From positions 1 through 59,744 of the IMG/VR virus record IMGVR_UViG_3300042861_000881: a stretch of 59,744 nucleotides of DNA; one strand, 5' to 3'. The DNA comes from a virus. The notes under the pieces were generated by a model that worked only from the letters and a program-made list of their open reading frames with translations, did no database searches and was not told the DNA's origin. Below, piece after piece: positions 52,161 to 59,744 of this stretch. Position numbers and translations under genes: made by a program. Each line of letters opens with the position of its first letter. Positions within the stretch are counted from its first letter, which is position 1.

Positions 52161-55100
52161 ATGGCAACAAACAGCAAAGTATTCGTATCTCCCGGGGTAT
52201 ATACTTCCGAAGTTGATTTAAGTTTCGTAGCACAGAGTGTGGGTGTAACCACATTAGGTATTGTTGGTGAGACTCTTAAAGGTCCAGCTTTCGAACCTAT
52301 CTTTATACGAAATTTTGATGAATTTACTAACTTCTTTGGAGGGACAACACCTGAAAAATTTATTAATACACAAATACCGAAGTATGAAGCTTCGTATATC
52401 GCAAAATCTTATTTACAACAATCTAATCAGTTGTTTGTTACAAGAATTTTGGGATTGTCAGGATATGACGCGGGACCATCTTGGTCTTTTAGAACAATCG
52501 CGAACGTAGATAAATCAACCGTAGGATTTAAATGTTCAGGGTTTACATATGACTTAGCGTTATGTGCTAACGTATGTACAGGTTATACTATAACACCATT
52601 CACATTTACTTTTACAGGTTGTAATAGTGGGATTGGTACTGTTGAAGTATCTGGTGTCCCATCACCTATATCAAATAAAATTAATGATACTTACGAAACC
52701 TTTAACGGTAGTACTTCAAGAATTTTAGATAATATTCAAACACAATTATTTAACATTATAACTACACCAAGTAGTTCGGCAACATCAATTAACTACTATG
52801 GTACTATTTCAGGTTCTGACTATAACTCTTTAAGTGCTTATACTTCGGAAAATAATGTTTATGGTATTGATAGTGTAAGTTCAACTAATGCTGATTACAC
52901 AGATGCTAATAATGACCCTTGGTATTATTCTTTATTCGATAACACTAATGGTTCATATAGTGGTTTCTCATTCTATAATGTTGTAACTAATTTAACTGCA
53001 ACAACATCATCATCAAATTGTGCAACATTCTATTCATTTTCTATGAGTTCTGCAACAGTTTCAAATACTGTTGGTAGTATAAATTATAATACAAATACAA
53101 TTGACGTTGTATTACCACAAGGTACACCAACATCAGGATTAACAGCATTAACTGTTGTATATAGTGCTTGTACAACAGGTGTTACCGTTAGTGGTGTTCA
53201 ACAAGTAAGTACAGGAACAACACAAAACTTTTCAGCGGGAACAAAAACATATGTTTTAACTTCACAAGATGGTTCTAATGTACAAAGTTGGACTGTTAAT
53301 GTTAGTGTATATAATCCTTGTAATCCTGCAACATCAGGTAATACAGGTTCAAATAATACCGGAACAATAACAACTTGTTATAGTGGTACGGTAAGTGGTA
53401 AAATTTACACATATTCAGGTGTTTCGTATACTGATTTTGATGATATGGTTATAGCAACACTTCGTTCAAGAGGTATTGCAACTTATGGTACAGGTAGTGA
53501 TGGTCCGGCTTATGAAGTTACAGGAGCAACAGATGTGTCTATTAATTGTACTGCATCAACTTATTCAAACATTGCTAAAAATCCATTCGCAACGTTTGGT
53601 CTTAATGTGACTGATTATGATGGTAATACATTCTTCTTTGAAACGTCTTTTAGTGAGTCAGATTCAAAATATTTACCTAAAGTATTTGGTTCTTCAAATT
53701 TTGCTAAACCAAGAACAACAGTTCCGGTATTTGTCGAAGAAAGATTCCAAGCGTTATTGAATTATGGATATAATAAAGGATATATTAGAGGTTTAAATTG
53801 TAATTTATTAGATTTACCAAGAGCAGCGGGTGGAGATTCTTCATCAATTGCTTACTACTTAGAAAGATATCAAACACCGGTTTCTCCGTGGGTTGTTTCT
53901 GAAGTTAGAGGTAATAAAGTATTTAACTTATTTAGATTTGCAACGATATCTGATGGTAATGCTGCTAATACTGAAGTTAAAATATCTATTGCGAATATGT
54001 CTTTCGGTAATTTAACATTTGATATTTTGGTTAGAGATTTCTATGATACGGATAATAATCCTGTAGTTATTGAGAAATTTACTAATTGTACTATGAACCC
54101 AAATGATAATTCATTTGTGGCTAAAAAAATTGGTACAACTGATGGTGAGTATGAATTGAATTCAAAATACATTATGGTAGAAATGAATGAAGACGCACCA
54201 ATTGACACATTACCTTGTGGATTCCAAGGATTTAAATTCAGACAATACGGTTCATCAAGGTCTCCATTCCCGATTTACAAAACTAAATATGATTACCCTG
54301 GTGAAGTAGTATTTGACCCACCATTTGGATTAAGTTCAGGTGGTAACGACGCTACGTTAAGTCCGGGTGATAATGTTCGTAGAACTTACTTAGGGGTTTC
54401 AACAGGAAACGGAGCTGGATACGATGTTGATTTCTTCCAATATAAAGGTAAACAAAAACCTTTAAATCTATGTATTGATAGTGATGCTGCAGAATGGTTA
54501 ACATTAACAAAAGGTTTCCATATGGATAAAAACGCAAGTGGTATTACAATATCAAACGTATATACAACAAGTGGAACTCCGGCTTATTATGTTGGTGACG
54601 CAACATTCACATCTGACCCAACAAGTGAAACAAGTCCTTACTACAGAATATACTCACGTAAATTCTCATTATTAGTACAAGGTGGTTTTGACGGGTGGGA
54701 CATCTATAGAGAATCTAGAAGTAACACAGATACATTTAAATTAGGTAGAAGAGGTTACTTAAACGGAGCTTGTACGGATATACAATATCCAACAGCTACA
54801 GGATGGGGAGCGTTCAAGAAAATCACTGTTGGAAACAATAGTGTTGATTATGGTAATTCTGATTACTACGCATACTTATTAGGACAACAAACATTCTCAA
54901 ATCCTGAGGCGGTTAATATTAACATATTTGTTACTCCGGGTATTGATTATTCAAATAACTCTGACTTAGTTGAGGAGGCAATTGAAATGATTGAGTTTAA
55001 CAGAGCTGACTCATTATATATTTGTACAACGGCTGATAGTGATTTATTTATTCCAAGTCCTGACCCAAGTGCATTAATTTACCCACAAGAGGCGGTAAAT

Positions 55101-55745
55101 ATTTTAGAAGAAAGTGGTATTGACTCTAACTATACTGCAACTTATTACCCTTGGGTATTGACAAGAGATAGTGTTAATAATACACAAATCTACTTACCAC
55201 CAACGGCAGAAGTTGTTAGAAACTTAGCGTTAACCGATAATATCGCGTTCCCTTGGTTCGCAGCGGCAGGTTACACAAGAGGTATTGTAAACGCAATCAA
55301 AGCAAGAAAGAAACTTACTCAAGAAGATAGAGATACTCTTTATCAAGGACGTATTAATCCAATCGCGACTTTCTCTGATGTTGGTACCGTAATTTGGGGT
55401 AACAAAACTCTACAAGTCGCACAATCAGCACTTGATAGAATAAATGTTAGAAGATTATTACTTCAAGCTCGTAAATTAATTTCAGCGGTATCTGTAAGAT
55501 TATTGTTTGAACAAAACGACCAAAAAGTAAGACAAGACTTCTTAGATGCTGTTAACCCTATCTTAGATGCTATCAGAAGAGACAGAGGTTTATACGATTT
55601 CCGTGTAACAGTTTCGTCAGACGCGGCTGATTTAGATAGAAATCAAATGACCGGTAAGATTTATATCAAACCAACCAAATCGTTAGAATTTATAGATATT
55701 ACATTCTATATTACTCCAACCGGAGCTTCTTTCGAGAATATATAA
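52161..55745 (+). CDS. gp18: Tail sheath protein (T4 gp18-like) with large inserted domains
   Basis: A 1194-residue contractile sheath protein; T4 gp18 is 659. The N-terminal SPGVYTSEVDLS and TTLGIVGETLKGPAFEPIFI segments (residues 10-50) and the C-terminal third from EEAIEMIEFNRADSL through NPIATFSDVGTVIWGNKTLQ to DAADLDRNQMTGKIYIKPTK are clear sheath signatures. Residues about 135-500 are extra: a Thr/Ser-rich region, then a DUF5018/cadherin-like module at about 294-388 (SINYNTNTIDVVLPQGTPTS ... TYVLTSQDGSNVQSWTVNVS), followed by another Cys-containing part. Similar insert domains in sheaths face outward. It is under late promoters, and forms the contractile tail with the tube gene 56780. 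Confidence 0.93.
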   Translation: MATNSKVFVSPGVYTSEVDLSFVAQSVGVTTLGIVGETLKGPAFEPIFIRNFDEFTNFFGGTTPEKFINTQIPKYEASYIAKSYLQQSNQLFVTRILGLSGYDAGPSWSFRTIANVDKSTVGFKCSGFTYDLALCANVCTGYTITPFTFTFTGCNSGIGTVEVSGVPSPISNKINDTYETFNGSTSRILDNIQTQLFNIITTPSSSATSINYYGTISGSDYNSLSAYTSENNVYGIDSVSSTNADYTDANNDPWYYSLFDNTNGSYSGFSFYNVVTNLTATTSSSNCATFYSFSMSSATVSNTVGSINYNTNTIDVVLPQGTPTSGLTALTVVYSACTTGVTVSGVQQVSTGTTQNFSAGTKTYVLTSQDGSNVQSWTVNVSVYNPCNPATSGNTGSNNTGTITTCYSGTVSGKIYTYSGVSYTDFDDMVIATLRSRGIATYGTGSDGPAYEVTGATDVSINCTASTYSNIAKNPFATFGLNVTDYDGNTFFFETSFSESDSKYLPKVFGSSNFAKPRTTVPVFVEERFQALLNYGYNKGYIRGLNCNLLDLPRAAGGDSSSIAYYLERYQTPVSPWVVSEVRGNKVFNLFRFATISDGNAANTEVKISIANMSFGNLTFDILVRDFYDTDNNPVVIEKFTNCTMNPNDNSFVAKKIGTTDGEYELNSKYIMVEMNEDAPIDTLPCGFQGFKFRQYGSSRSPFPIYKTKYDYPGEVVFDPPFGLSSGGNDATLSPGDNVRRTYLGVSTGNGAGYDVDFFQYKGKQKPLNLCIDSDAAEWLTLTKGFHMDKNASGITISNVYTTSGTPAYYVGDATFTSDPTSETSPYYRIYSRKFSLLVQGGFDGWDIYRESRSNTDTFKLGRRGYLNGACTDIQYPTATGWGAFKKITVGNNSVDYGNSDYYAYLLGQQTFSNPEAVNINIFVTPGIDYSNNSDLVEEAIEMIEFNRADSLYICTTADSDLFIPSPDPSALIYPQEAVNILEESGIDSNYTATYYPWVLTRDSVNNTQIYLPPTAEVVRNLALTDNIAFPWFAAAGYTRGIVNAIKARKKLTQEDRDTLYQGRINPIATFSDVGTVIWGNKTLQVAQSALDRINVRRLLLQARKLISAVSVRLLFEQNDQKVRQDFLDAVNPILDAIRRDRGLYDFRVTVSSDAADLDRNQMTGKIYIKPTKSLEFIDITFYITPTGASFENI

Positions 55746-55801: not shown

Positions 55802-56620
55802 ATGTTAAAAAATAGAATAGTTGAAGGAATAGATGAGTTTGGTGCTCCTGATGAAAAATATTACGCATTTGATTGGGACGACAATATTGTATCGATGCCC
55901 ACAAAAATAATATTAAAAGATGAAGACGGTGATGAGGTTGGTATGTCAACCGAAGATTTTGCGACTTACAGAGAAGAAATTGGAAAAGAACCTATTGAGT
56001 TTGACGGACACACAATAGTAGGGTTTGCGGAAAACCCTTTTAGATGGTTTGGAGTTAAAGGTGATAAACAATTTATTGTTGATTCATTAACCGCTAAACC
56101 AGGACCTGCTTGGCCTGATTTTGTTGAGGCAATAAATAATGGGTCAATTTTTTCAATAGTGACCGCAAGAGGTCATACACCATCAGTACTAAAAGAGGCT
56201 TGTTACAATTACATTGTTTCAAATATTAATGGTATTGATTCAAACGAATTAGTTAGAAATTTAGAAAAATATCGTGATTTAGCGGATGAAGAAAATGTCT
56301 CTAAAAGAGAGATGATTCGAGAATATTTGGATTTATGTAGGTTTTATCCTGTAAGTTATGGAGAAGGTTCCGCAACTAATCCGGAAGAAGGTAAAATTAA
56401 GGCATTAAAAGATTTTGTTAAATATGTTAAAGAGATGTCTCAACATATACAAAAAAAGGCATTCTTAAAAAATAAAATAAATAATTATTTTGTCCCAAAA
56501 ATAGGTTTTTCTGATGACGACTTAAAAAATGTGGACGTAGTTAAAAAACATTTTGAGCAAGACCCAGAAAATATTATTAAAACTTATTCAACAGCAGGAG
56601 GAATTAAAAGAGAATATTAA
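55802..56620 (+). CDS. HAD-superfamily hydrolase-like protein in the tail module
   Basis: A 272-residue protein with HAD motifs: motif I YYAFDWDDNIVSMP (D24 and D26), motif II IFSIVTARGHTP (Thr121), and a motif IV-like KIGFSDDDLKNVDVV near residue 230. A lysine for motif III is likely in the KGIKALKD region. HAD enzymes are mostly phosphatases; known phage relatives dephosphorylate nucleotides or DNA ends, but the substrate here is unknown. It lies between the sheath and tube genes, an unusual site for an enzyme, so a structural or assembly role has not been excluded. Confidence 0.75.
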   Translation: MLKNRIVEGIDEFGAPDEKYYAFDWDDNIVSMPTKIILKDEDGDEVGMSTEDFATYREEIGKEPIEFDGHTIVGFAENPFRWFGVKGDKQFIVDSLTAKPGPAWPDFVEAINNGSIFSIVTARGHTPSVLKEACYNYIVSNINGIDSNELVRNLEKYRDLADEENVSKREMIREYLDLCRFYPVSYGEGSATNPEEGKIKALKDFVKYVKEMSQHIQKKAFLKNKINNYFVPKIGFSDDDLKNVDVVKKHFEQDPENIIKTYSTAGGIKREY

Positions 56621-56779: not shown

Positions 56780-57268
56780 ATGGCTGATTTATTAATGAAA
56801 ATGCCCATACCGTATGAACCAAAAAGAAAAAATAGGTTTATTTTACGATTCCCATCTACTTTAGGGATTAACGAATGGTTCGTAGAAACAGCTGCTAGAC
56901 CACATATCACTATTAAAGATGTTGAGATACCTTTCTTAAACACTTCAACTTATGTTGCGGGTCGTTTTACTTGGGGAACTATTGGTGTTAAATTCCGTGA
57001 CCCAATCGGACCTTCTGCATCACAAGCTCTTATGGAATGGGTTCGTTTATGTGCTGAATCAGTTACGGGTCGTATGGGGTACGCAGCGGGATACAAGAAG
57101 AACATCGACCTTGAGATGTTAGACCCAACAGGTGTTGTTGTGGAAAAATGGATTTTAGAAGGAACTTTTTTAACTGATGTTAATTTTGATTCGTTAGGTT
57201 ATGCGGATGATGCTATTGCGGGTATTACAACAACTCTTCGTATGGATAGATGTATATTAGTTTACTAA
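56780..57268 (+). CDS. gp19: Tail tube protein (T4 gp19-like)
   Basis: A 162-residue major tail tube protein; T4 gp19 has 163. Typical features are the N-terminal MPIPYEPKRKNRFILRFPST, the segment RPHITIKDVEIPFLNTSTYV and the KFRDPIGPSASQALMEWVRL core. The C-terminal VVVEKWILEGTFLTDVNFDS, leading into ITTTLRMDRCIL, matches the tube hairpin and terminus. Rings of this protein form the inner tube that delivers DNA, inside the sheath encoded at 52161..55745. It has its own promoter-like region and a strong terminator directly downstream, consistent with high expression as a single unit. Confidence 0.95.
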   Translation: MADLLMKMPIPYEPKRKNRFILRFPSTLGINEWFVETAARPHITIKDVEIPFLNTSTYVAGRFTWGTIGVKFRDPIGPSASQALMEWVRLCAESVTGRMGYAAGYKKNIDLEMLDPTGVVVEKWILEGTFLTDVNFDSLGYADDAIAGITTTLRMDRCILVY

Positions 57269-57372: not shown

Positions 57373-58128
57373 ATGGAACAAAATTTATTAGATGCTGGAA
57401 CACAAGGATTCAATTTACCACACGACGTGGTTACATTACCTACAGGTGGTGTATTTTACAAATCAAAAAAGAAATCAGTTAAAGTTGGTTATTTAACGGC
57501 TAATGATGAAAATTATTTAATTGGTGCCGGACGTAGTAGTGAAAATATAATCTTAAAATTATTAAGAAATAAAGTTTACGAACACGATTTACGACCTGAA
57601 GAATTATTGGATGGTGATGTTGAAGCCATTTTAATATTTTTAAGAAATACTTCTTTTGGGTCTGAATATAGTGTTAATTTAACCGACCCGGCAACGGACA
57701 AACCATTTGTTGGTAAAATTAATTTAGATGAATTAAATATTAAAAAAACTCAAGTTAAACCGGATGAAGATGGTACATTTACTACTAAATTACCAAGAAC
57801 AGGTGTAACCGTTAAATTAAGACCAACAACATTCTATGACACAATTGAGTTAGATAAACAAGCGGAACAATATCCTGTGGGATTACAAGCCCCAAGAATT
57901 ACTTGGAAATTACAAAAACATATTGTTGAAGTAGATGGAGACCAAGATAGAGCAAAAATTGGTTTATTTGTAGATTCATTACCAATTATGGATTCAAAAT
58001 ACATAAGAAATTTTTTAAGAGAAAATGAGCCGTCATTGGACTTAAAAAGAAGTGTAATCGCCCCTTCAGGAGAATTGGTGTCTTTCGAGATTACCTTTGG
58101 GGTGGACTTTTTTCGACCTTTCTTTTAG
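57373..58128 (+). CDS. T4 baseplate (gp26/PF12322-type) protein; likely tail-assembly chaperone base frame
   Basis: A 251-residue protein matching the T4 baseplate family that includes gp26. The hallmark start LPHDVVTLPTGGVFYKSKK is followed by KSVKVGYLTANDENYLIGAG and helix-rich ENIILKLLRNKVYEHDLRPE. The C-terminal half (LRPTTFYDTIELDKQAEQYP, VDSLPIMDSKYIRNFLREN) is also as in the family. The stop (TAG, 58126-58128) is followed in the +1 frame by an open frame with a small acidic/aromatic domain (58139..58267). It lies between the tail tube and tape measure genes, where tail-assembly chaperones such as lambda G/GT occur. Confidence 0.75.
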   Translation: MEQNLLDAGTQGFNLPHDVVTLPTGGVFYKSKKKSVKVGYLTANDENYLIGAGRSSENIILKLLRNKVYEHDLRPEELLDGDVEAILIFLRNTSFGSEYSVNLTDPATDKPFVGKINLDELNIKKTQVKPDEDGTFTTKLPRTGVTVKLRPTTFYDTIELDKQAEQYPVGLQAPRITWKLQKHIVEVDGDQDRAKIGLFVDSLPIMDSKYIRNFLRENEPSLDLKRSVIAPSGELVSFEITFGVDFFRPFF

Positions 58129-58267
58129 TCATAGACAAATGATGATTGAGGAATATATGTATTTAGCTCAATCACTTCGTATATCATATTCGGATTTTCA
58201 TTCAATGCCGACATATGTTAGAAAATACATTATAAATAAATTAATAGATAATAACACACCAGACTAG
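58104..58267 (+). CDS. Small ORF / +1 frameshift extension of the 57373 gene
   Basis: An open frame is read +1 relative to 57373..58128. As a free gene it would start at ATG 58139 and give 42 residues (MMIEEYMYLAQSLRISYSDF then HSMPTYVRKYIINKLID). Without an ATG it is open further upstream: a +1 slip at TTT-TAG (58123-58128 region) would give PFF followed by SHRQMMIEEYMYLAQ as one chain. The sequence 'eey.yLa...risysD...MPtyvrkYi..kl' is like the C-terminal extension of tail-assembly chaperones. Independent translation from ATG 58139 remains possible. Confidence 0.55.
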
Positions 58268-58315: not shown

Positions 58316-59744
58316 ATGCCAACACCAGAAACACCGGGAGGTAAATCACCTTTAGATTATGCAGAAAAAGCGGTTAAGTCAAATTTTGACCCGGAAATGA
58401 TTGCTAAAGTAGTCGTAACACTTGACAATGCTGCGAGTCAAATGCTTAAGCAGTTTGGTCAAGGTCAAGCTATGGCGGACATATTACGTATGAGTATGTC
58501 CGAATCCGTTACTTCTGTTAGAAAATTAGGTGGAGATATTGAGGATGTTCTTAAAATTCAACAAGAGGCGTCTAAAGAATTGGGTAGAAATGTTATTTTA
58601 ACCGAAGAATCAACTAAAGATTTATACGCAACAATGAAAGTTACCGGTCAAGAGGCAAGTAAAATTGTTGGTGGTATGGCGGATGTAGGTATTTCTTCCG
58701 GAAAAGCTACCGCAGAAATGTTAAAAGTTGTTAATGTTGCAAGAGAATCCGGTGTTAACGCTCAAGCGGTTTCAGGTAAAGTTTTAGATAATATGCAGGC
58801 ACTTAACAAATATAATTTTGCGGGAGGTGTTGAAGGTTTGGCTAAAATGGCCGCACAAGCTACCTCGTTAAGAATTGATATGTCTCAAACATTAGGGTTT
58901 GCTGAAAAAGTATTTAATCCTGAGGGGGCGATTGAAGTTGCCGCTGCAATGCAAAGATTGGGGGTTTCTCAAAGTTCATTATTAGACCCATTAAAATTAA
59001 TGGATTTATCACAAAATGACCCTGCGGAATTACAAAATCAAATTGCTGAAATGAGTAAACAATTTGTTCAACTTGGTAAAGATGGACATTTTGAAATTAT
59101 GCCGGGGGCTAAACGTCAAATAAGAGAAGTCGAACAAGCTATGGGGTTAGCTAGTGGTACTTTAGCTAAAATGGCGTTGGGTAGTGCGGATTTAGACAAG
59201 AAAATGAAAGAAATTTCATTTCCGGATGTACCTGAAGACCAAAAGAAAATGATTGCCAATATGGCGGAAATGGGTGCGGGGGGTGAATATAAAGTTAAAT
59301 TTACCGACGCAGAAGGTAAACAACAAGAAAAGTCTGTATCTGAATTAAGTAAAGATGATGTTGCTGCTCTTGAAAAAATGGCTAATACCGCTCCTCCAAC
59401 AATGGAAGAGTTGGCAAAACAACAGTTGTCTGCGACTGAGGCTGTTACTGCGGCAATTAATAGTTTAGGTGATAGAACAGGTTTAGGGTTGGCCGGTAGT
59501 AAATCCGGTGGACAATTATTGACTGGGATTAGAAAAGTTGGTACAGCTATTGGTGATATTCCAAGTGAAGGATTATCTTCAAAAAATATTGCTAAAGAAA
59601 TTGATAAATTTTCAGACACTGTAATGGGGGCGTTAACAGAATATGGTAATTCAGGTACGGGAGCCGGAAAATTAGCAGAAGCGTTTGTTGATTTTGCGGG
59701 ATTTGTTAAAACAGAATTAAAAGATTCTTTTTCAAATGTAAAAG
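58316..59744 (+). CDS. Tail tape measure protein, N-terminal part (cut by window edge)
   Basis: The first 476 codons of a large gene that leaves the window. The sequence begins MPTPETPGGKSPLDYAEKAV and then is almost wholly helical, rich in Ala, Gly, Lys, Gln and Met: QMLKQFGQGQAMADILRMSM, EEVLKIQQ-like helices, KVTGQEASKIVGGMADVGIS, FGFAEKVFNPEGAIEVAAAM. This long, repetitive amphipathic character, together with its position after the chaperone-like gene, identifies a tape measure protein that sets tail length and exits first with the DNA. No transmembrane or lysozyme domain is seen in this part. The start (ATG 58316) has an A-rich leader without a clear Shine-Dalgarno. Confidence 0.82.
   Translation, partial: MPTPETPGGKSPLDYAEKAVKSNFDPEMIAKVVVTLDNAASQMLKQFGQGQAMADILRMSMSESVTSVRKLGGDIEDVLKIQQEASKELGRNVILTEESTKDLYATMKVTGQEASKIVGGMADVGISSGKATAEMLKVVNVARESGVNAQAVSGKVLDNMQALNKYNFAGGVEGLAKMAAQATSLRIDMSQTLGFAEKVFNPEGAIEVAAAMQRLGVSQSSLLDPLKLMDLSQNDPAELQNQIAEMSKQFVQLGKDGHFEIMPGAKRQIREVEQAMGLASGTLAKMALGSADLDKKMKEISFPDVPEDQKKMIANMAEMGAGGEYKVKFTDAEGKQQEKSVSELSKDDVAALEKMANTAPPTMEELAKQQLSATEAVTAAINSLGDRTGLGLAGSKSGGQLLTGIRKVGTAIGDIPSEGLSSKNIAKEIDKFSDTVMGALTEYGNSGTGAGKLAEAFVDFAGFVKTELKDSFSNVK

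Follow-up and report, generated by a model that had tools for sequence, protein, structure and literature searches.

The gene that starts at position 57373 of the window, the 59,744-nucleotide stretch of viral DNA analysed here (IMG/VR record IMGVR_UViG_3300042861_000881, positions 1 to 59,744), ends at a TAG codon across which the +1 frame stays open. This raises the question of whether the second frame is translated as an extension of the first and, if so, where the ribosome changes frame. The zero frame (57373-58128) ends in TTT TTT CGA CCT TTC TTT TAG, and the +1 frame runs on to TAG 58265-58267 with the product ...DLSFSHRQMMIEEYMYLAQSLRISYSDFHSMPTYVRKYIINKLIDNNTPD, as the initial annotation had described. 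The predicted long form has 297 aa, with a 50-residue C-domain. The features of the locus are listed in Table 1.

Table 1. Position of the features discussed in the text (window coordinates).
Feature	Position	Strand	Remarks
Tail tube protein (gp19-like)	56780..57268	+	phrog_4542 E 4.6e-25
Short form (putative TAC-N, T4 gp26-like), 251 aa	57373..58128	+	stop TAG 58126-58128
Invariant TTTGGGG element, 5' of the slip site	58096..58102	+	TTT and GGG codons invariant, 31/31
Probable slip site UUU|CGA	58111..58116	+	TTT invariant, 31/31 close relatives
Extension in the +1 frame (50 aa, then stop TAG)	58115..58267	+	0 stops, pN/pS 0.38; profile links to other extensions
UUU-UAG, main site of the initial annotation	58123..58128	+	TTT TAR in just 5/89 distinct junctions
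Start of long gene at tape-measure position, running off the window end	58316..59743	+	open ORF

The locus very probably encodes a tail assembly chaperone pair of T4-like contractile phages (TAC-N/TAC-NC), the long form of which is made by a +1 slip at UUU|CGA. The majority of ribosomes would terminate at TAG 58126 and release the short chaperone (TAC-N, gp26-like). In a fraction of them, tRNA-Phe in the P site would shift by +1 from UUU (58111-58113) to the overlapping UUC (58112-58114) with the arginine codon CGA pending in the A site, and the shifted ribosomes would read the +1 frame to 58264, giving TAC-NC. If the pair works like lambda gpG/gpGT, short and long form alike would attach to the tape measure protein, and the long form would use its C-domain to recruit tail tube subunits. 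We infer the slippage itself, its efficiency, the exact codon and the chaperone function of the pair from the comparisons presented below.

The short form and its neighbourhood

Profile matching places the short form in the family of T4 gp26 and gp51 (PF12322, 'T4 bacteriophage base plate protein'; 39.6 bits, cut-off 24.5, E 6e-10), in agreement with its earlier assignment as a T4 gp26-type protein; its match to phrog_150 has an E value of 1.6e-12. In fold comparisons, the AlphaFold2 model of the short form (pLDDT 85) came close to the SP-15 baseplate hub subunit (TM 0.83) and to gp26 of Aeromonas phage 25 (E 7e-6). Neither the PDB sequence search with T4 gp51 nor the fold search with the window model returned a solved relative.

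The gene is located downstream of the gp19-type tube gene and upstream of the gene in tape-measure position. The G/GT-like map position proposed for it is supported, with the tube gene (phrog_4542) on the 5' side and a putative tape measure gene on the 3' side. The latter is so designated from its position alone, as it had no tape measure family match among the Pfam and PHROG profiles; in relatives, the equivalent position is occupied by an annotated tape measure gene. No tRNA genes were found in the window. Further upstream on the + strand lies an unusually long tail sheath protein of 1194 aa (52161-55745), whose profile matches are confined to the C-terminal 300 residues and the remainder of which may consist of inserted domains. 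The interval between sheath and tube holds a 272-aa ORF (55802-56620, +) with no convincing match in Pfam or PHROG.

Conservation and coding selection of the extension

Searching IMG/VR with the short protein brought up 322 matching segments; the 80 best loci were retained and form, together with the window, a close set of 81 loci. All 80 of these best loci carry the zero-frame stop at the same place, followed by a recognisable +1 extension, which in one of them (L045) is cut by the contig end. Selection statistics were based on the 40 codons 3' of the zero-frame stop in 31 non-redundant sequences. Within these codons the +1 frame contains no stops and the other frames contain 152 and 146. The pN/pS ratio of the +1 frame, 0.38, is similar to the 0.34 of the upstream part of the short gene; the two remaining frames have ratios of 0.93 and 1.44. 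The variability at the three codon positions of the +1 frame is 0.20/0.12/0.34. The +1 extension is a real coding sequence under purifying selection.

No start codon is universal to the extensions, and in four loci (L069, L075, L077 and L079) the stretch up to the conserved [MI]PTY contains no ATG. The second frame is therefore under coding selection without a start of its own, as is characteristic of a programmed frameshift. The same arrangement is present in the cultured phages GXN1, SP-15 (a Bacillus phage), immuto (a Flavobacterium phage), Mel-JY01 and LIS04. The initial annotation had suggested looking for homologues in which the two frames are fused: no in-frame fusion of short form and extension was found among the close relatives, but T4 gp51 resembles a short-plus-extension protein in one frame.

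The slip site and the alternative routes

Both slip sites named in the initial annotation are present in the window; only the upstream one (58108-58116) is conserved. The junction survey covered 154 loci with a +1 extension, representing 89 distinct junctions, and each of the 89 has, within the permitted interval, a zero-frame TTT with C or T as the next base. As several relatives have a +1-frame stop shortly upstream of the junction, the slip is confined to the last few codons. In the group L088-L096 this stop lies 23 nt upstream, and the remaining interval, TTC TTT TGG CCT GAC GAA TGA, leaves TTT|TGG as the sole candidate site. The junction is TTT CGN in the window clade, where all four CGN forms of the A-site arginine codon occur, TTT CGT in Streptococcus phage GXN1, TTT CAC in SP-15 and TTT CTT, TTT CTA or TTT TGG in immuto-like phages. 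Because tRNA-Phe on UUU can re-pair with UUY after a +1 shift, a single rule fits all of these junctions. Moreover, L071 reads TTC TTT CGG, so the first TTT of the window site is dispensable. The site that had been listed second, TTT TTT CGA, is the probable one, since UUU|Y is found in 89 of 89 distinct junctions, and the original proposal of a programmed +1 frameshift is strengthened by the coding selection together with this conserved site, which permits re-pairing.

The codon usage near the end of the short gene points in the same direction. Among degenerate columns with an invariant amino acid, the codon itself is invariant in five of eight within the last ten codons vs three of 78 elsewhere (p 8e-5). 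The invariant codons are TTT(-9), GGG(-8), the P-site TTT(-4), CCT(-2) and TTC(-1). The invariance of the last two is explained by the Leu and Ser that they encode in the +1 frame, so translation seems to have entered this frame by then.

A prfB-like +1 slip at the stop, UUU-UAG, had been the preferred site of the initial annotation, and re-pairing from UUU to UUU would be perfect in the window. It is nevertheless very unlikely, as the slip codon directly 5' of the stop is poorly conserved (TTT TAR is retained in only five of the 89 distinct junctions). Most relatives end in UUC-UAA, where tRNA-Phe would be forced to re-pair on UCU, and the invariant CCT and TTC codons behave as though the +1 frame were already in use.

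It is also very improbable that the extension forms a small gene of its own, with translation restarting at the ATG ATG at 58139 once ribosomes have ended the zero frame. Such a gene does exist in the distant relatives L099 and L103 (L099:2001-2708, L103:2001-2708 plus downstream), where the module is a free ATG-started gene, and in P-SSM2-like phages an ATG immediately follows the stop (it is absent in syn9, HTVC008M-like contigs and L327), which makes reinitiation possible for them. However, the ATG pair is missing from most close relatives, the four loci named above lack any ATG ahead of [MI]PTY, and the coding constraint spans the overlap, including CCT and TTC. A free gene or reinitiation was thus rejected for the window lineage owing to the lack of start codons, and it is real in L099 and L103; the free ATG gene without fusion, named beforehand as evidence against the slip, is limited to these two lineages. 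In both, the free gene lies in the -1 frame just 3' of the short-form stop and has about 25 extra N-terminal residues.

A frame change by RNA polymerase slippage on the T run, instead of by the ribosome, could make use of the T6 present in the window, but it is extremely unlikely given that L071 and L081 (both TTCTTTC) and the relatives with TTTCTT or TTTCTA have a run of at most three T at the site. The T homopolymer at the junction also brings to mind a sequencing or assembly error, the chance of which is practically negligible, as the identical frame break recurs in 81 close contigs as well as in cultured phages whose genomes are complete, and no in-frame version was seen in the window lineage; so many independent records refute the idea.

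Upstream of the +1 slip site, the TTTGGGG element is invariant across the window clade. GGG encodes 31 of 31 Gly at the element position, but its share in the rest of the gene is 46 of 425 Gly codons (11%). Of the predicted anti-SD pairings around the site, that of the element is the strongest, at -6.0 to -9.2 kcal/mol against a background 1% quantile of -6.7. SD-like motifs stand upstream of only three of the 54 window ORFs of 120 aa or more, and the start contexts of the window are A-rich, presumably resembling those of Bacteroidota phages. The element is a conserved one, for which anti-SD pairing is a possible role. In immuto-like phages, the upstream elements are weaker and more variable. 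prfB likewise carries an upstream SD-like element, located closer to the P site than the GGGG element is here, and the A-site codon of the window, unlike that of a slip at a stop, is a sense codon. Nothing consistent was detected in the search for downstream RNA structure (mean z about -0.5).

Other phages with the same C-domain and known systems

In other members of the family, the extension is reached by different routes. The sequences of the LR756511 jumbo-phage group, Agrobacterium phage Atu_ph07, the cyanophages syn9 and P-SSM2 and about 85 further cyanophage-like and Pelagibacter-phage-like contigs point to a -1 slip instead, at U UUU UUY ahead of the gp26 stop. In P-SSM2 (L235:1718-1891), syn9 (L234:2749-2892) and Pelagibacter phage HTVC008M (L236:1867-2004) the -1 frame is annotated separately, as gp51 or baseplate hub assembly catalyst. 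In syn9 and P-SSM2 this frame reaches back into the gp26 gene over the U UUU UU run; for HTVC008M, the run-back was observed via near-identical contigs. The annotated gp51 or hub-catalyst genes of these three phages are probably the C-terminal parts of a -1 frameshift product. The three resemble the window in the family of the short form and in an extension that is homologous through profiles, and differ from it in the -1 shift at U UUU UUY and in the annotation as two genes.

According to profile comparisons, the window extension is homologous to the -1-accessed extensions of other phages. The comparisons gave 93% (E 2.5e-7) for window and immuto, 94% (E 1e-7) for window and jumbo phages and 81% (E 1.2e-5) for immuto and cyanophages, and reversed decoys were negative. 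T4 has two separate genes and no frameshift, and both proteins, gp26 and gp51, match PF12322 like the short form of the window (E 9e-64 and 4e-52, respectively). The two are paralogues (profile comparison 99.6%, E 1.4e-23), gp51 being longer by a C-tail: its residues 1-201 match the family and are followed by about 45 residues of helical tail. The cyanophage extension matches this gp51 tail (98%, E 1.2e-12), and the P-SSM2 extension frame matches columns 227-278 of phrog_150 (E 1.4e-10), where the T4 gp51 tail falls. The direct HMM match between the window extension and the gp51 tail was not significant, and the proposed relationship of the two rests on a chain through immuto and the cyanophages.

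Pfam and PHROG scans with the extensions by themselves gave nothing above noise except for L196, which matched phrog_20255 (function unknown) at 8e-4. A link to DUF6760 and eCIS was also considered and rejected: DUF6760 was not reported by the Pfam scans of the extensions and is not named in the literature searched, and single-protein genome scans gave no bacterial relative.

It is conceivable, albeit doubtful, that one orthologous chaperone gene switched its route to the same C-domain repeatedly (+1, -1, free gene, duplicated fused gene) and that the +1 slip of the window lineage is stimulated by pairing of GGGG with the 16S anti-SD. If this were true, the anti-SD in the window phage would serve recoding and not initiation, given the rare use of SD motifs in its ORFs.

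Genes 26 and 51 are reportedly named in earlier work on the chaperones of T4-like phages, in several groups of which frameshifting is said to be conserved. In the lambda G/GT system the short form serves to coat the tape measure, and recruitment of the tube falls to the long form; the same review lists T4 as the exception to G-T frameshifting in long-tailed phages (Atkins 2016, PMC5009743). T4 gp26 and gp51 were listed as hub assembly chaperones by Leiman 2010 (PMC3004832), who described gp51 as an essential protein that is missing from the finished particle and whose function is unknown. The study of Vladimirov, Gautam and Davidson 2022 (Virology 566:9-15), as represented in the papers that cite it, established which proteins are the chaperones of T4-like phages, so the idea of a chaperone pair in these phages is already published. 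The PRFect paper cites it for separate short and fused long genes in some T4-like phages (PMC10885494), and the Adele paper for -1 signals on poly-T in the TAC-N genes of T4-like phages (PMC12846349). Like these TAC-N/TAC-NC pairs, the window proteins fall into the gp26/gp51 family (PF12322) and would come in two forms, one with an additional C-domain; the signal in those citations is -1, whereas the shift predicted in the window is +1, an unusual direction, at UUU|Y. lambda gpG/gpGT also precedes the tape measure gene and has a short and a frameshifted long form; lambda uses -1. A probable +1 chaperone frameshift has a precedent in HSTV-2 (PMC5009743), which has a different host. The influenza motif UCC UUU CGU given in the PA-X papers is of the same UUU CGN site type as that of the window, in a different gene and host. 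No description was found, in the accessible parts of this literature, of the UUU|Y site with its +1 slip, the window clade, the invariant GGGG element or a single family in which +1, -1, split and duplicated arrangements occur side by side, and these appear to be new.

The results show that chaperone-frameshift signals occur in relatives of T4, of the +1 type in some groups and of the -1 type in others; the sequences fit the published view of T4 gp26 as the short form and gp51 as the long form. The chaperone family thus offers a natural series for the evolution of frameshift direction. In cyanophages, SP-15, immuto and many metagenomic phages, what is annotated as a 'baseplate hub' gene and a 'gp51' gene is probably one frameshifted gene.
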